Shown: positions 40,281 to 53,263 of the stretch, one piece after another
Position numbering within the stretch: the stretch's first letter is position 1
Layout: each line of letters begins with the position of its first letter
Source: Candidatus Schekmanbacteria bacterium
GTDB lineage: Bacteria; Schekmanbacteria; GWA2-38-11; J061
Reading direction: 5' to 3'
Assembly: GCA_016219965.1 (NCBI GenBank)
Contig: JACRJM010000009.1
Coordinates: 1-64,000 of the forward strand
DNA: 64,000 nucleotides
Notes under the pieces: generated by a model
The model's database searches: none
What the model was told of the DNA's origin: nothing
The model's input: only the letters and a program-made list of their open reading frames with translations
Position numbers and translations under genes: made by a program

Positions 40281-42005
40281 TTATTGGAGCCTGTGAGCAT
40301 AAAATGGAAACTTCTTGCAGAGCTCTTTCACTTCTGCTTTTACTCGTTCCGCGGTTGCCTGGTCATCCTTGTGCTCAAGGACATCGTTTATCCAGCCGGC
40401 TATTATCTTCATTTCAGGTTCTTTTAATCCCTTTGTAGTAACTGCCGGAGTACCTATTCTTATTCCGCTTGTTACAAAGGGGCTTCTTGTTTCAAAGGGA
40501 ACAGTGTTTTTGTTTACTGTTATTCCTGCTTTTTCAAGTGCAGCCTCTGCATCCTTGCCTGTGAGATTCTTATTGTTTAAATTTACAAGCATCAGGTGTG
40601 TGTCTGTTCCCCCTGATACAAGGTGAAACCCTCTTTTTACAAGCTCCGACGCCAGTGTCTGGGCATTTTTGATAATCTGCTTCTGGTAATTCTTAAATTC
40701 ATCGCTTAAGGCCTCCTTGAAAGCAACTGCCTTTGCAGCGATTACGTGCATCAACGGTCCACCCTGAATTCCGGGGAATATGTTTTTATCCATGAGCTTT
40801 GCAAGTTCTTCGTTATTTGTCATTATCATTCCTCCGCGTGGTCCGCGAAGTGTCTTATGGGTTGTTGTGGTGACGAACTCGCAATAAGGGACCGGGTTAG
40901 GGAAAAGACCTGCTACCACAAGCCCTGCATAGTGAGCAATATCAGCCATCACCATGGCTCCAGTTTCATCTGCTATTTCCCTGAACGCTTTGAAATCTAT
41001 CTGTCTGGGGTATGCACTTGCCCCTACAACAATGAGGCGCGGTTTGTGCTCTTTCGCAAGTTTTCTCACCTCGTCGTAATCAATTGTTTCCGTGTCCTGT
41101 CTTACGCCGTAAAATTTTATGTTATAAAGCATGCCTGAAAAATTCACAGGACTTCCATGAGTTAAGTGCCCGCCATGTGAAAGGTTCATGCCAAGCACGT
41201 TGTCGCCCGGTTTGCATACAGAAAAATAAACTCCCATGTTTGCCTGCGAACCGGAATGGGGCTGGACGTTTACGAATTTCGCTCCGAACAACTTTTTTGC
41301 ACGTTCCCTGGCAAGATCTTCGGCAACATCTACAAACTGGCAGCCGCCGTAATATCTTTTTCCCGGTAAACCTTCGGCGTATTTGTTGGTCATAATGCAT
41401 CCCTGTGCTTCGAGAACAGCTTCACTTACAATGTTTTCAGATGCAATGAGTTCAAGCTTGTATTCAAGCCGTTCTGTTTCTTTTCTTATTGCTTCTGCAA
41501 GTTCCGGATCAACTTCGCTTAGTCTTTTCACTCCAGTACTCCTTGTGTTGTTATTATTTTTTCCAAAAAGTTCGTTTTCAAGTGTTGTTATGCGGTCAAG
41601 CCTCTTCTGGTGCCGCCCTCCTTCAAATTCTGTTGTAAGCCAGACTTCGGTTATTTCAACTGCATGTTCCTGTTCAATTGTTCTCCCGCCAAGGATAAGA
41701 ATATTTGAGTTGTTGTGTTCCCTGCTCATCTTCGCTGTATATGTATTGCAACAAAGTGTCGCCCGTACTCCCGGAAATTTGTTGGCCACTATGGACATCC
41801 CGATGCCTGTACCGCATATCAATATCCCTGAATCAGCTTTCTTCTCAGATATGCGGCGTGCAACTTCTATGGCATACGCCGGATAATCGACTGAGTTATT
41901 TGATTCCGTTCCCAAGTCTTGATAGGGGATACATTTTTTTTCAAGGTATTTTTTTATTGTTTCTTTGAGCTCAAATCCACCGTGATCAGAACCTATTAAA
42001 ATCAT
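40281..42005 (-). CDS. Fused ribose-5-phosphate isomerase B - serine hydroxymethyltransferase
   Basis: A single 574-residue frame. Residues 1-147 are complete RpiB (SDHGGFELK near 6-14, C64 in [12 protein letters not shown]). Residues 148-158 are a short Asn-rich linker. Residues 159-574 are complete GlyA ([24 protein letters not shown], and K384 for PLP in [13 protein letters not shown]). RpiB interconverts ribose and ribulose 5-phosphate; GlyA makes glycine and methylene-THF from serine. The two genes are usually adjacent but separate. A ribosome site and GTG inside the frame (41529-41544) would allow GlyA alone to be made. Followed by the dCMP deaminase after 15 bases. Confidence 0.93.
41529..41544 (-). 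promoter_or_regulatory. glyA: Internal ribosome-binding site and GTG start for glyA inside the fused gene
   Basis: On the minus strand AAGGAG (41544-41539) stands seven bases before GTG (41531-41529), which is residue 159 of the fusion. Starting there gives a 416-residue GlyA, the normal family length. The linker DNA looks like the old gap between rpiB and glyA, now in frame. Confidence 0.65.
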
Positions 42006-42605
42006 GGCATTATCCGTTTCTTTTAAGGTTGCTGTTATGGAACTATATTGAAGAAGGGGTGCTTGTCAAGGAGACTTTTTTATCTGCATATAAGCGACTT
42101 AAACGCTAACTCATTTTTTAACAAATGGGTCTTTGCTGAGCATGGTAAAATGATGTGGTGTGTTAATGAGAGTCAATTTGAATTTTAATCAAATGTATAT
42201 GAAATGCAGTTGGTTTTTTCTATGTTAGGAGTCTTTATCTTTAGATAGAAAAGAAGTTAACACATTGTAATTTTGCAATTTAACGGAAGCAAAAAATAAT
42301 GAAAATAACGATTGTTCTAATGTTATATTCGTTTATGAAAAGTCATTTGCTTGGCGTTGTTGTACAAAATTGAACAGCATTTCAAGCCTCGATTTATAGT
42401 TTTTCTTCAAGTTTTGATGTTTCATTTTTTAACAATAATTTTAGTTAATATCTCGTTTTATTTGAGCATGTTGGTTCACTTTTTTAATAGAAAAATGAAA
42501 AGTGTTTTTTTGTTTTGGAACAAGACTTGCATGTACCAGACGAACTAGAAAAAAATAATGGAAAGGAAGTAATCAGAGAAAACTAAAAAGTAAATTTTGG
42601 GATTA
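42006..42605. other. Long AT-rich intergenic region
   Basis: About 600 bases between the divergent rpiB-glyA gene and the GEMM riboswitch. It must hold the promoters for both. A 65-codon plus-strand frame (42351-42548) has low-complexity hydrophobic content and no ribosome site, so it is not called. No clear promoter pair was identified. Confidence 0.4.
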
Positions 42606-42692
42606 GGAAGTCTCCGAAATGGTAAACCCTGTGCAAGCAGGGGGCACAAAGCTTCGAATCCTTTGCGGGATGGTCGGGCTGCCGAAGAGACA
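42606..42692 (+). promoter_or_regulatory. GEMM-type cyclic dinucleotide riboswitch aptamer
   Basis: The conserved GEMM-I core is visible. P1 is GTCTC (42610-42614) with GAGAC (42687-42691). AATGGTAAACC leads into hairpin P2, CCTGT-GCAA-GCAGG, closed by a GNRA tetraloop, followed by GGGCACAAAGC. Then comes a second hairpin ending in GGTCGGGCTGCCGA, which matches the tetraloop-receptor side of known members. GEMM-I RNAs bind c-di-GMP, or 3',3'-cGAMP in the Geobacter subclass. Which ligand applies cannot be decided by eye. A terminator follows 20 bases later. Confidence 0.85.
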
Positions 42693-42711
42693 CATTACAG
42701 GTTCGATAAAT

Positions 42712-42753
42712 AAAAGCCTGTTCTTCGCGTCCGGAGAACAGGCTTTTTTATTT
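42712..42753 (+). terminator. Terminator hairpin of the riboswitch expression platform
   Basis: AGCCTGTTCT (42715-42724) pairs with AGAACAGGCT (42735-42744), followed by a T-run and a matching A-run on the 5' side. Its position just after the aptamer implies control by transcription termination. Confidence 0.88.
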
Positions 42754-43166
42754 ACGACTTTATAACAAAGAAAAAATTATGGAAAACTTTCGTGAAAAAA
42801 ATTTTTTAAATATGAAAAAAATTTTCCTTATTGCGTGTAAATTTAATTTCCAATTTTATAGGGATGGTAAATTAAATGACGTTTCAGTTTAAAAGTAAAC
42901 GATGTTTAAAAACAGAAACATTAATTGACTGGGCTGTTGTTGTAATTATTTATACTACAACATCATATAATATAATTAATAAATTTATAAAGAATATTCT
43001 GAAAAATATTCCGAATATGGAACGACAATTGCATAATTGCAACTAGGTTGTGGGATTTCCCAAAAGATTAAACCTGTAAAAAATGAAGGAATGAAGTTTC
43101 GAAATATACGCACTGTGTAATGAACACGAGGAGTTATTTAACAACATTATGAAAGGGGAGTAGAAG
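42754..43166 (+). other. Unusually long AT-rich leader between riboswitch terminator and the haem protein gene
   Basis: 413 bases with no gene. It holds short inverted repeats (for example GTTGTA/TACAAC near 42939-42961) and a TTGACT at 42925-42930 without a well-spaced -10 box. A GAAAGGGGAG ribosome site precedes the ATG at 43167. It may be untranslated leader, or may hold a second promoter. Confidence 0.45.
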
Positions 43167-46100
43167 ATGAAAAGCAGATGTATTGTATTAGCAGTTTTTT
43201 TAATGTCGATTTTTTCAAGTTCAGTTTTTGCGCAAAGCAATTATGTAACAACATGGCAGACACGCTATCCTTCATCGCAGTCAGTGAATAATGTTAATAC
43301 TGCTTTGGGATCTAAATGCCGCTTCTGTCATTTTACTTCTTCAACATCAACATGGAATGCCTATGGTTGGGCCTTAAGGTTAGAAATTAATAATAATGGA
43401 AAAACAATTAGTCAGGCACTTGCTGCTGTAGAGTCTCTAAACTCTGATGGAGATCCTACGAACTCATCTAACCTGGTAGAAATCAACGCAAACGCACAAC
43501 CAGGATGGACATCAGGCGCTAATAATACCAGATATAATACTAGTTCAACTGTTTTAAATCAAACAGCTCCAGCAATTTCTAATTTAGATCCTGCGGCAGC
43601 TACACAGCCTGCCATTAACGTGTCGCCGGCGTCTCTTGCTTTTGGTTCAGGAGTTGTTGGCGTAACCAAGACGCTTGCAGCCACTATAAGCAACAGTGGG
43701 AATGCTAACCTTAGTGTTACCGGTCTTTCAATCACCGGTAGTTCGGATTTTAAGCTTAACTCATCTGTGCCGGCTACACCATTAACAGTTGCACCCAGTG
43801 CCTCAGTTAATATATCTGTTGATTTTACACCTTCATCTACGGGTGCAAAGGTTGGAACTTTTCAGATTGCAAGCTCTGACCCGAGCAAAGCGACAGTTTC
43901 AGTAAATCTTTCGGGGACTGGTGATCCGGTTCCCCAACCAGATATCAATGTGCTGCCAGTATCACTTGGTTTTGGTACAGAAGTAGTTGGTGCAACGAAG
44001 ACTCTTACGACTACTATAAATAACATTGGTAATGCAAGTCTTACGGTAACCGGTCTTTCAATCACCGGGAGTTCTGATTTTAAGCTTAACTCATCAGCTC
44101 CGGCTGTGTCCTTTACAGTTGCAGCTAACGCTTCAGTTGATGTAGCTGTTGATTTTATTCCTTCATCTACAGGTGCTAAGGTTGCAACCCTTCAGATTGC
44201 AAGCTCTGATCCGGATGAAGCTACTGTGTCTGTAAATCTTTCAGGGACAGGTAGCCCTGTATTGCAACCAGACATCAATGTACTTCCAGTATCACTTGGT
44301 TTTGGTACAGAAGTAGTTGGTGCAACGAAGACTCTTACGACCACTATAAACAATATAGGCAATACAGACCTTACGGTAACTGGTCTTTCAATCAGCGGTA
44401 GTTCGGATTTTAAGCTTAACTCATCAGCTCCGGTTGTATCCTTTACAGTTGCAGCTAACGCTTCAGTTGATGTAGCTGTTGATTTTATTCCTTCATCTAC
44501 AGGTGCTAAGGTTGCAACCCTTCAGATTGCAAGCTCTGACCCGGATGAAGCGACAGTTTCTGTAAATCTTTCGGGGACTGGTAGCTCGATGACGCAGCCT
44601 GACATCAATGTACTTCCAGTATCACTTGGTTTTGGTACAGAAGTTATTGGTGCAACTAAGACCCTTACTGCCACTATAAGCAATGTCGGTAATGCTGACC
44701 TTACTGTAACCGGTCTTTCAATCAGTGGCAGTTCTGATTTTAAGCTTAACTCATCAGCTCCGGCTGTGTCCTTTACAGTTGCAGCTAACAACTCAGTTGA
44801 AATAGCCGTAGATTATACGCCTTCATCTGCCGCAGCAAGCAGTGCAACATTACAGATTGCAAGCTCTGATCCGGACGAGGCGACAGTTTCTGTAAATCTT
44901 TCCGGGACTGGTAGTTCTGTTGCCCAGCCTGATATCAATGTATTGCCTGCGGCTCTTGATTTCGGGACAGAAGTTGTTGGCACTACCAAGACACTTACAG
45001 CTGCTATAAGCAACATCGGGAATGCTGACCTTACGGTAACCGGTCTTTCAATCAGCGGCAGTTCAGATTTTTCGCTTAATTCATCAACACCATCTGTATC
45101 ATTTACAGTTGCAGCTAACAACTCGGTTGAAATAGCTGTTGATTTTACTCCTTCATCTGCCGCAGCAAGCAGTGCAACATTACAGATTGCAAGCTCCGAT
45201 CCGGACGAGGCGACAGTTTCTGTAAATCTTTCCGGGACTGGAACTGACACAACAATCCAGAGTGTTGACTATGATGTTAAAGAGTTTTCTGTAACAAAAA
45301 GTGTGAAATTGAAAGAAGGAAAATCTATTAAGATAAAGTTGGTTGCTGAAAATAATGGAACGACCAATGAACCTCGAAATGCTACTGTAAAAGGTATTCA
45401 GAATAACGCGGAAATCTATAATCAGACAATATCCATCTCTGTTGATCCTGCAAATAGCGATGATGGTGATGATGACGATGATGACGACAACAATAATGGC
45501 GGAGGTTCCAATGGGCATACAGTAAATGAGGACGGAGTCTATCATAGACCTGGCCTGAAGGACCCGATGACGAACTGTACCGAATGTCATGGTTCGGATC
45601 TTAAGGGTGGAGATGTAGGAGTATCCTGCTATAGTTGTCATGATGCAAAGTGGTCTGAAAGTGGCAATGGAGATGGCAACAATACCGGAGGTTCCAATGG
45701 GCATACAGTGAACAAGGACGGAGTCTATCATAGACCTGGCTTGAATGATCCGATGACTAACTGCACCGAATGTCATGGTTCAGACCTTAAGGGCGGAAGC
45801 GTCGGAGTGTCTTGCTATAGTTGTCATGGTGCTAAATGGTCTGAAAATGGAGACGATGACGAGAGTGATAAACAAGCCCTTACTGCTAATAAAACCACAT
45901 CCTCATCAGAAGAAGATAATGATGAAGAAGAAGCTAATGTTGAGACCTTTGAATTTCCGGATTATACAGCGATTGCATCAGGTGATATAACATGGACAAT
46001 AACTATAGATGATGACGATTCTGATCTGGATGAAGCGTCGGCAACAACAAAAGTCTCCGGACAAAAATCTTCTGTTGTTGAAGTTAAACCGAGCAAAGTT

Positions 46101-46379
46101 AGTATAAAAGCAGGAAAGAAGAAGGAACTTGCAGCAAACATTAAAACCAAATCAAGCAAGAAAAAATCTGCAACAACATCACAAAAGTTTGATTGGTATG
46201 TAAATGATGTCCTTGGGGGCAACAGTGAAGTAGGGACCATAACGCCGGTTAAAAAAGGTGGAAAAGCGAAATATGCAGCCCCCACCAAACTTACCGGGAG
46301 TAACAAAATAACAATCAAGGCTGTTAGCAAGAGCGACTCATCGCTGTACGGAACATCTCAGGTTACTATACAAAAATAA
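43167..46379 (+). CDS. Secreted multihaem repeat protein (five CxxCH motifs, five ASH-type repeats)
   Basis: 1070 residues. A signal peptide ends near AQS (about 22-24). A first haem motif, CRFCH, is near residue 51. Five tandem repeats of about 110 residues (about 145-692) match the ASPM-SPD-2-Hydin/choice-of-anchor type (INV-P-SL-FG, TISN-GN, GSSDF-LN). An Asp-rich low-complexity linker comes next, then two copies of a di-haem cassette with CTECHG and CYSCH (about 783-832 and 845-893). A Lys/Ser-rich beta C-terminus ends the chain. It is probably an extracellular or outer-membrane redox or adhesion protein. The GEMM riboswitch upstream suggests second-messenger control. No PEP-CTERM tail is seen. 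Confidence 0.85.
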   Translation: MKSRCIVLAVFLMSIFSSSVFAQSNYVTTWQTRYPSSQSVNNVNTALGSKCRFCHFTSSTSTWNAYGWALRLEINNNGKTISQALAAVESLNSDGDPTNSSNLVEINANAQPGWTSGANNTRYNTSSTVLNQTAPAISNLDPAAATQPAINVSPASLAFGSGVVGVTKTLAATISNSGNANLSVTGLSITGSSDFKLNSSVPATPLTVAPSASVNISVDFTPSSTGAKVGTFQIASSDPSKATVSVNLSGTGDPVPQPDINVLPVSLGFGTEVVGATKTLTTTINNIGNASLTVTGLSITGSSDFKLNSSAPAVSFTVAANASVDVAVDFIPSSTGAKVATLQIASSDPDEATVSVNLSGTGSPVLQPDINVLPVSLGFGTEVVGATKTLTTTINNIGNTDLTVTGLSISGSSDFKLNSSAPVVSFTVAANASVDVAVDFIPSSTGAKVATLQIASSDPDEATVSVNLSGTGSSMTQPDINVLPVSLGFGTEVIGATKTLTATISNVGNADLTVTGLSISGSSDFKLNSSAPAVSFTVAANNSVEIAVDYTPSSAAASSATLQIASSDPDEATVSVNLSGTGSSVAQPDINVLPAALDFGTEVVGTTKTLTAAISNIGNADLTVTGLSISGSSDFSLNSSTPSVSFTVAANNSVEIAVDFTPSSAAASSATLQIASSDPDEATVSVNLSGTGTDTTIQSVDYDVKEFSVTKSVKLKEGKSIKIKLVAENNGTTNEPRNATVKGIQNNAEIYNQTISISVDPANSDDGDDDDDDDNNNGGGSNGHTVNEDGVYHRPGLKDPMTNCTECHGSDLKGGDVGVSCYSCHDAKWSESGNGDGNNTGGSNGHTVNKDGVYHRPGLNDPMTNCTECHGSDLKGGSVGVSCYSCHGAKWSENGDDDESDKQALTANKTTSSSEEDNDEEEANVETFEFPDYTAIASGDITWTITIDDDDSDLDEASATTKVSGQKSSVVEVKPSKVSIKAGKKKELAANIKTKSSKKKSATTSQKFDWYVNDVLGGNSEVGTITPVKKGGKAKYAAPTKLTGSNKITIKAVSKSDSSLYGTSQVTIQK
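43600..45243 (+). repeat. Five tandem 330-base repeats (ASH-type domains)
   Basis: Units begin near 43600, 43933, 44263, 44593 and 44923, each encoding about 110 residues. Units 2 and 3 share long stretches of identical DNA, including the segment coding FTVAANASVDVAVDFIPSST, and units 4 and 5 share another set. This indicates recent duplication or gene conversion. Confidence 0.9.
45513..45846 (+). repeat. Two copies of a di-haem cassette
   Basis: Copy 1 covers 45513-45660 and copy 2 covers 45699-45846. Each encodes GHTVN-DGVYHRPGL, then C-ECHGSDLKGG, then SCYSCH-AKWSE: two CxxCH motifs in about 49 residues. A third, diverged copy occurs in the minus-strand protein at 51780-51925. Confidence 0.88.
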
Positions 46380-51052: not shown

Positions 51053-53263
51053 TTAGTTGCTCAAAGCTCCCTGATTAATCCAATCTTTGATAGTCTGAAG
51101 CTGTGTTGGTGTGATTGAACCGCCAGGAGGCATTGTGCCGTCTATGATTCTTGTGATGAGCAGACTGTTATCCGCGTCGAAGGGGATAACTGCTGGTCCG
51201 CTTGCACCGCCCTGATAGATCTTTGAAACTGTGCTTACATCAAGCCCGCCTAGTGCACCACTGCCGCTGTGGCAGCCGAGGCAGTTCGGGTCAAGCACAG
51301 GAACAACATCGCACTTGAATCTAACAATTCCCGAGCCATCGCTTGCAACATTTATAAGAACTGTTGCTGATGCTGTTCCTCCGAGATTGTCAGTTACTGT
51401 TAATGATACATTGAATGTTCCCGGACATGCGAAAGAATGTACCGGGTTTATCTCGGAGCTTGTTGTTGAGTCTCCGAAATCCCAGAAGTATGTTGCTATA
51501 GAGCCGTCAGAGTCACTTGCTGTTGATGTAAATGTTACGTTTAGAGGAATTACTCCTGATGTAGGTGTTGCAGAAACAGAAACAGTAGGCAGTGCATTGG
51601 GCTGTGACATCTTGTCCAGGGTGTCTATAAGTACCTGAAGGATTGAACGGACACGTTTCTGTTCGTTGCAATCAATGATTGCATCATTTGAATCAGGCTC
51701 AGTGCCGCAACCGTCAAGTTTATTAAGCATGTTTTTTGTCTCTAAAAGTGCCTTGCCGTAATCTACATAGGGTCCTCCGGTGCTCCACTTTGCGCCGTGG
51801 CATGTATAGCATGATGGAGCTGTAACGCCGCCTGTTAGATCTGCGCCATGACAACCGGTGCAGTAGGTTTCAGGATAGTGTAACCCCGGTCTGTGATAAA
51901 CGCCGTTGTTGTTGATTGTATGGCCCAAGAAAGCTCCGCTACCGCTGGAATATTCTTCTTCGTGAAGCCCTACGAATTTGCTTATATTATTTAATTTTAC
52001 AATTAGCAATTCACGGCTTGCTTCACCATTGTTAAATGATGTGGAAGGCAGTCCATTTATGACATTTCTTAATCCTATTATCTGCCTGTCAACAGGCGCC
52101 ACATAAGTCTGGGTTAGCTTCTCTACCTGAATAGTAGGAACGCGGTTCAGGTCATAACTTAATCCGCCGTTTCGAAGCACGCGTCCGTCGGGCAGAAGGT
52201 TATACCCTGCAGTATCTCCACCTTCTTTCAAAGAAGCGGTGATTGTCCAGTTATTCATATAAGGGTCATAGAGAAAACAGTCTTTAAGTATTCCAAGGGA
52301 ATTTGCACCGCCCGGAATAAGCACTGAGCCATCATAAAGCTTTACCACTGAAAAAAGGTTACCTCTGATTGATGGCATTGACTTTATTGATGTGAAGGTT
52401 CTTGTCGCCGGGTCATATAGTTCTGCTGTTGCTGTTGTGGTAGTTCCTGTGAGACCGCCGCCTGCAATCAGCACTTTCCCATTGTTTAAGAGCATATGAG
52501 CATGTGTGTTCCTTACACTGTTCATATTGCCTATATATGTGAAGGTGTTTGCCGCCGGGTCATAAATCTCTGCGCTGGATTGCGGATTTGTGATGCCCAC
52601 AAGCGTTCCTCCTGTGAGGAGTACTGTCCCGTCAGGAAGAAGATCTGCACCATGAAAAAGCCTCGGTGTTGTCATGTCGCCTATGTAGGTGAATGCCCCT
52701 GTTGCGGGATCATAAATTTCCGCTGTCTTAAGAGCAATAGAGCTTCCAAGGCTAGCTCTGTCTCCACCGCCCGTGACCAGCACTCTGCCGTCGCTAAGGA
52801 GAGTCATCTGATGGTTTCTTCTCGCATAATTCATTGAGCCGGTCAGAGTCCAGACTCCTGTTGCAGGGTCAAATATCTCTGCTTTGTTGGTTATTAATGT
52901 CGTTCCGCCGCCGTAGGCAAGTCTTCCGCCGCTTACGAGCACTCTGCCGTCATTTAGGAGGACTATTCCCATGCTCATTCTACCGACGTTCATTGACCCG
53001 GTAGAAGTCCATGTATTTGTGGTTGCGTCATAGATTTCTGCGCTTGTGAGTGCTGGTCCGCCGGTAGCATTTGTGCCTCCTGTTGACAACACTCTTCCGT
53101 CAGCTAAATTTACACTTCCGTGGAGAAATCTTCGTGAGTTTAAATCAGCTTCCTGATACCATCCACCAGGCATCTTTGGATTGTATTCTACTGCCCATGT
53201 GAGAATAACAAAAGAAAGAACTGCAAGTAAAGCTATCCTGTAACTTTTACTCCCAATTTTCAT
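51053..53263 (-). CDS. Secreted kelch-propeller protein with di-haem cassette, PKD domain and C-terminal cytochrome c
   Basis: 736 residues. A signal peptide or anchor is at about 8-26. Six to seven kelch-type repeats (about 40-390) each carry L-DGRVL-TGG, AE-YDP-T and a closing MN--R, typical of a galactose-oxidase-like propeller. The di-haem cassette (GHTINNNGVYHRPGL, CTGCHG, CYTCHG) is near 447-495. A PKD domain (about 560-645) has FWDFGDSTTS. A final single-haem domain has CLGCHSG, and TMPPGG may provide the distal Met ligand. It is an extracellular redox protein of unknown substrate. It shares its di-haem cassette with the protein at 43167. Confidence 0.85.
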   Translation of the reverse strand: MKIGSKSYRIALLAVLSFVILTWAVEYNPKMPGGWYQEADLNSRRFLHGSVNLADGRVLSTGGTNATGGPALTSAEIYDATTNTWTSTGSMNVGRMSMGIVLLNDGRVLVSGGRLAYGGGTTLITNKAEIFDPATGVWTLTGSMNYARRNHQMTLLSDGRVLVTGGGDRASLGSSIALKTAEIYDPATGAFTYIGDMTTPRLFHGADLLPDGTVLLTGGTLVGITNPQSSAEIYDPAANTFTYIGNMNSVRNTHAHMLLNNGKVLIAGGGLTGTTTTATAELYDPATRTFTSIKSMPSIRGNLFSVVKLYDGSVLIPGGANSLGILKDCFLYDPYMNNWTITASLKEGGDTAGYNLLPDGRVLRNGGLSYDLNRVPTIQVEKLTQTYVAPVDRQIIGLRNVINGLPSTSFNNGEASRELLIVKLNNISKFVGLHEEEYSSGSGAFLGHTINNNGVYHRPGLHYPETYCTGCHGADLTGGVTAPSCYTCHGAKWSTGGPYVDYGKALLETKNMLNKLDGCGTEPDSNDAIIDCNEQKRVRSILQVLIDTLDKMSQPNALPTVSVSATPTSGVIPLNVTFTSTASDSDGSIATYFWDFGDSTTSSEINPVHSFACPGTFNVSLTVTDNLGGTASATVLINVASDGSGIVRFKCDVVPVLDPNCLGCHSGSGALGGLDVSTVSKIYQGGASGPAVIPFDADNSLLITRIIDGTMPPGGSITPTQLQTIKDWINQGALSN
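51780..51925 (-). repeat. Third copy of the di-haem cassette
   Basis: Encodes GHTINNNGVYHRPGL, CTGCHGADLTGG and SCYTCHGAKWS, the same order and spacing as the two copies at 45513-45846, inside an otherwise unrelated protein. Confidence 0.85.

Follow-up and report, generated by a model that had tools for sequence, protein, structure and literature searches.

A predicted class-I c-di-GMP riboswitch with a probable OFF-type platform upstream of an ASH-repeat multihaem protein gene in Candidatus Schekmanbacteria

Introduction

The closest described relatives of the RNA reported here are riboswitches of the GEMM-I type, which differ from each other in ligand and in the direction of switching. In Clostridioides difficile, the class-I c-di-GMP riboswitch Cd1 is followed by a post-terminator leader of 338 nt, which holds an invertible switch (PMC5386303). 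In the pilM riboswitch of Geobacter, the aptamer and the terminator are mutually exclusive, an ON geometry (PMC9262584). The numbering of the residues that form the ligand pocket follows published accounts (PMC9049102, PMC6274999); A47 is the intercalating base, and mutants of G20 and C92 shift the specificity (PMC9049102). On the side of ligand synthesis, Hypr cGAMP synthases carry a serine at the Hypr position of the GGDEF domain (PMC6456294).

Here, we describe a GEMM-I locus of a Candidatus Schekmanbacteria bacterium, a member of a sparsely sampled bacterial lineage, which is thereby added to the c-di-GMP riboswitch record. The window is the whole stretch of DNA analysed, 64,000 nucleotides of contig JACRJM010000009.1, and all positions without a contig label refer to it. 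The best explanation of the locus, to which we assign a probability of roughly 70%, is that a class-I c-di-GMP (GEMM-I) riboswitch acts as a transcriptional OFF-switch under an upstream sigma54-type promoter.

Results

Table 1. Features of the riboswitch locus, with positions in the window.
Feature	Positions	Strand	Basis or description
Predicted sigma54-type promoter P1 (upstream promoter)	42516..42531	+	TGGAAC-N5-TTGCA (-24/-12), start ~42542
GEMM-I (c-di-GMP-I) aptamer including helix P1	42610..42691	+	RF01051, RF03167, 17-homologue alignment, pair covariation
Predicted antiterminator	42683..42727	+	Fold series of growing lengths (co-transcriptional)
Intrinsic terminator	42712..42750	+	16-pair stem 42712-42747, T-rich tail
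Leader	42754..43166	+	413 nt, AT-rich, 26% GC
56-codon ORF, probably not a gene	42876..43046	+	SD-like AGGGATGG
Inverted repeat	42935..42962	+	TGTTGTTGTA-N8-TACTACAACA, speculative enhancer-binding site
Candidate sigma54-type promoter P2 (leader promoter)	43018..43033	+	TGGAAC-N5-TTGCA, start ~43044, downstream of the terminator
Controlled gene	43167..46379	+	1070 aa; signal peptide by inspection
C-terminal Ig-like domain	46074..46376	+	~95 aa, WYVNDVLGGN..VGTIT

The GEMM anatomy that the original prediction had read from the sequence was confirmed by inspection: helix P1 is formed by GUCUC (42610-42614) and GAGAC (42687-42691) and extends through CG/CG beyond an AA bulge, a GCAA loop of the GNRA type closes P2, and the CACAAAGC segment and the receptor hairpin P3 are all present. 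The covariance model RF01051, against which it had proposed to score the aptamer, matched within 42611-42687 (+) with 56.7 bits, well above the gathering score of 35, and nine of the 12 predicted pairs carried compensatory changes on both sides among 17 GEMM aptamers. Helix P1 is absent from the consensus fold of these 17 aptamers, and its support comes from the inspection of sibling loci. J1/2 comprises 5 nt instead of the usual 6, as it does in two other aptamers of the order (G000 C4, a paralogue in the same genome, and G003 C135), which could change the affinity of the window aptamer. The likewise predicted intrinsic terminator is strong; it begins 20 nt past P1 and is the sole terminator-like site in 1.2 kb, where 0.4 were expected. 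The window RNA is a GEMM-I riboswitch with attached terminator and an ordinary member of GEMM-I.

The gene downstream starts with an ATG preceded by the SD sequence AAGGGGAG, and its product, which is predicted to be exported, consists of an N-terminal monohaem module, five ASH/choice-of-anchor-D repeats, two dihaem modules and a C-terminal Ig-like domain, with CxxCH motifs at residues 51, 804, 821, 866 and 883. The five ASH-type repeats and five CxxCH motifs had been recognized before and called a new architecture; the combination is as described, but it is a shuffle of local modules, each of which is also present on its own at other places in this genome. Contig C15 encodes a monohaem protein of 253 aa and an ASH protein of 945 aa that lacks CxxCH, and dihaem modules are found at 51053-53263 of the window and at C4:381824. 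The former, encoded on the minus strand, is a Kelch/PKD protein that combines the dihaem module of the riboswitch gene (GHTxNxxGVYHRPGL...CxxCH...CYxCHGAKW) with a PSCyt1-type haem site. Another ORF of the window (40281-42005, minus strand) encodes a complete serine hydroxymethyltransferase preceded by an N-terminal RpiB-like part, as seen from its translation.

To look for promoters, the 400 nt ahead of each of eight aptamers from the order were scanned with weights for sigma54 -24/-12 elements, and clear best matches emerged at three loci: TTGGAACAAGACTTGCA at -96 in the window, TAGGCACAGTAATTGCA at -88 at G000 C4 and CTGGCATAGTTATTGCA at -91 at G003 C135, counted from the aptamer match. At each of these loci, none of 300 base-composition shuffles contained a site as good. 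The element at 42516 has GG at -24 and GC at -12 with correct spacing, and the genome encodes one RpoN. Genome-wide, TGGMAYN5TTGCW has 80 matches versus eight for the reversed control; the excess is carried by TGGCAY, of which 42 of 53 lie outside long ORFs. TGGAAC, with four of 12 sites outside ORFs compared to a baseline of 14.5%, is only mildly enriched and counts as a weak variant of the sigma54 element. Support for the upstream site comes mainly from its position relative to the aptamer, since this is conserved in the three loci, and the predicted promoter with a start near 42542 probably drives the riboswitch transcript. A scan for sigma70-type promoters was uninformative (eight found, 5.4 expected).

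Between the terminator and the start codon, the original prediction had counted 413 bases, a distance that it considered far longer than usual and suspected of holding a second control element or promoter. The gap of about 415 nt is indeed long when compared to the roughly 20-90 nt of siblings with a downstream gene; however, a post-terminator leader of 338 nt has been published for Cd1, so that length alone is not new. A second riboswitch, an invertible repeat or a strong RNA structure was not found in the leader. It contains no Rfam family, and a permissive search gave sub-threshold matches, mostly over the terminator hairpin. No convincing leader homology was detected in three relatives of the order, and a search for a source from which the leader might have been copied returned only AT-rich chance matches. 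The fold of the whole leader has a z of -1.1 and lacks strong overall structure. Its inverted-repeat content does not differ significantly from shuffles (p 0.17), the only long inverted repeat is one AT-rich palindrome, and an invertible element like that of Cd1 was rejected for want of suitable repeats. Two overlapping 100-nt leader windows (42954-43093) are more stable than shuffles, with z ~ -2.4. The 56-codon ORF was discarded as a gene; its longest-ORF p in shuffles is 0.038, and a homologue was not found in the order.

The part of the suspicion that stands is the promoter, as the leader contains a second -24/-12 match after the terminator, whose motif is identical to the upstream one. 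As a riboswitch bypass, this candidate promoter is statistically only suggestive, and we put it forward tentatively, given that it is without the conserved-position support of the upstream site. The speculative enhancer-binding site in the leader is located ~80-108 nt before the predicted start, and a search for a shared enhancer-site motif upstream of the four sigma54 sites gave nothing convincing. If the leader promoter dominated, the riboswitch would work, but the gene would be expressed mainly from ~43044, c-di-GMP would hardly affect the protein, and the aptamer and terminator would yield a short RNA. Such a start would give a leader of 123 nt, and the identity of the two motifs fits as well; the motif variant, however, is just mildly enriched between genes, and no homologous leader was found on which conservation could be judged. 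We consider it unlikely that the gene depends mainly on this start.

In addition to the promoters, the direction of the proposed OFF-switch was addressed by folding six order-level platforms with terminators at growing lengths. In five of them, the best free fold just before completion of the terminator pairs the terminator 5' arm with the 3' strand of helix P1. In the window, CGAAGA (42683-42688) of the P1 3' strand is complementary to UCUUCG (42722-42727), and ACAGGUU (42697-42703) lengthens the stem. Once the terminator 5' arm is complete, this antiterminator folds ~2 kcal/mol better than a structure that keeps P1, which is among the smallest advantages of the folded platforms. The terminator wins in full-length folds, where retention of P1 costs 0-0.8 kcal/mol in five siblings and 2.1 kcal/mol in the window. 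The pattern corresponds to the OFF geometry of Cd1, unlike that of pilM (PMC9262584). The duplex of P1 strand and terminator arm alone has a p of 0.31 in comparison to shuffles in the window, and p values of 0.0005-0.036 in four siblings. The assignment as an OFF-switch rests on the siblings, because the antiterminator of the window gains little over the fold that keeps P1, and its duplex is no better than shuffles; taken together, the modelled folds suggest that the window switch probably acts as a transcriptional OFF-switch. An ON-switch, in which ligand binding would prevent termination, is known among the cGAMP-binding GEMM-I members of Geobacter, but P1 and the terminator of the window share no nucleotides and can coexist, and it is the P1 3' strand that keeps the terminator from forming in the alternative fold. 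ON behaviour of the window RNA is therefore improbable.

The residues of the ligand pocket were located by an alignment of 17 sequences, in which the equivalents of Vc2 G20, A47 and C92 are positions 42621, 42648 and 42682 of the window. The equivalents of A47 and C92 are invariant in all 17 homologues, and that of G20 is a G in 16. The window thus reads G20-A47-C92, a standard c-di-GMP pocket. The genome (3.58 Mb, 98% complete) was surveyed for cyclases and has 13 GGDEF matches; ten include the catalytic motif region, each of these possesses an aspartate at the Hypr position, none of them is of the serine (Hypr) type, and an SMODS-type CD-NTase was not detected. Since both the base at position 20 and the cyclases of the genome point in the same direction, the predicted ligand is very probably c-di-GMP.

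The original prediction had instead brought up cGAMP, which would make the window RNA a GEMM-Ib riboswitch like those of Geobacter cytochrome genes. This is tempting in view of the CxxCH motifs in the controlled protein, an A20-type GEMM ahead of a multihaem gene in a relative of the same order and a Hypr-like GGDEF in another relative; however, A20, the mark of GEMM-Ib, is replaced by G in the window, this genome yielded neither a Hypr GGDEF nor an SMODS CD-NTase, and the window platform is predicted to be OFF-type, whereas the studied pilM cGAMP switch is ON. We therefore rejected cGAMP as a ligand of the window copy, for which the idea is not supported and highly improbable; it would suit a sibling (G003). 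A GEMM-I aptamer in front of a haem protein gene does not suffice to assign the ligand.

For the window aptamer, the top-ranked Rfam family is RF03167 (c-di-GMP-I-GGC), with 60.2 bits (E 1e-11; 42611-42687, +) and thus 1.2 bits over the gathering score of 59; RF01051 is placed below it, and RF03167 also scores best for the C4 paralogue (60.7 bits). We take GGC to denote the residues at positions 20, 47 and 92, and the G at 47 to define the class. Although RF03167 is nominally the best match, membership in this variant class, and with it altered ligand recognition, is hardly credible and was rejected, as the margins of 1-2 bits are small and the A47 position, the base after the second P2 strand, is a G in the consensus of the Rfam alignment (GACGCGAAG) but an A in the window (GGCACAAAG).

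Several loci of relatives deserve mention in their own right. L024 (1501-1577; G003:C144:5016-5092) is a GEMM-I aptamer with A20 (cGAMP-type) located 21 nt ahead of a multihaem protein gene; the SD sequence GGAGG has its complement, CCUCC, in the 5' strand of P1, which suggests translational control. L079 (G002:C1:10388-10858) encodes a Hypr-like GGDEF protein (GHLVGSSVL ... GGDEF), a candidate cGAMP synthase, and no GEMM-I was detected in the relative that carries it (G002). L009 (G001:C116) is a GEMM-I aptamer without a sizeable ORF directly downstream, on a short contig.

GEMM-I occurs in three copies in the genome: one lies ahead of an Ig/repeat protein gene (C3), one ahead of a minor-pilin operon (C4, with PilV/W/X-like proteins by inspection) and one ahead of the window gene. 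Of the eight GEMM loci in the order, five have products that share the Ig-like domain, i.e. the window locus and four others (G000 C3, G000 C9, G001 C40, G003 C135 and G003 C122 in all). Three of the five are orthologous as judged from their architecture, and the same genes supplied the search profile; the domain is present in 18 genes of the three GEMM-bearing genomes. It appears that minor pilins and exported Ig/ASH proteins are joined in a single regulon through c-di-GMP riboswitches.

Discussion

Transcription of the window locus probably begins near 42542, at the sigma54-type promoter. At low levels of c-di-GMP, the P1 3' strand would pair with the terminator 5' arm, and the polymerase would read through into the ASH/multihaem gene; binding of c-di-GMP would lock P1, allowing the terminator to form and the transcript to end. 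A start in the leader would yield a transcript free of the riboswitch. The point of interest is whether the leader promoter makes expression of the gene independent of c-di-GMP. An arrangement in which two sigma54-type promoters bracket the terminator switch, c-di-GMP gates the upstream transcript only and the downstream one bypasses it is possible, although we regard it as doubtful; if it holds, the choice between c-di-GMP-sensitive and c-di-GMP-blind expression would fall to enhancer-binding proteins. Three observations from the sequences appear to be new: the sigma54-type element at a conserved upstream position in three loci, the candidate second element inside the leader, which is suggestive, and the Ig-like domain shared among the GEMM products. 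Only the candidate bypass promoter would be a new arrangement.

Among the known systems, the GEMM-Ib riboswitches of Geobacter (pilM, pgcA, omcAHG; PMC9262584, PMC6456294) have the GEMM-I fold and the control of cytochrome and pilus genes in common with the loci described here; they bind cGAMP, in contrast to the G20 pocket of the window and a genome in which no Hypr GGDEF was found, and pilM is an ON-switch, unlike the predicted OFF-type platform. Bc1 of Bacillus thuringiensis (PMC11218506) likewise has a long expression platform, with two terminators 28 bp apart, whereas one was found in the window. Cd1 of C. difficile (PMC5386303, PMC9262584) differs in its sigmaA promoter, in its flagellar target flgB and in its invertible 154-bp element with 21-bp repeats, for which no comparable repeats were found in the window, where the upstream promoter is sigma54-type in look. 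It shares with the window the GEMM-I aptamer and the long leader after the terminator, and its terminator-based OFF geometry, in which the P1 3' strand and the terminator compete, is the one predicted for the window.
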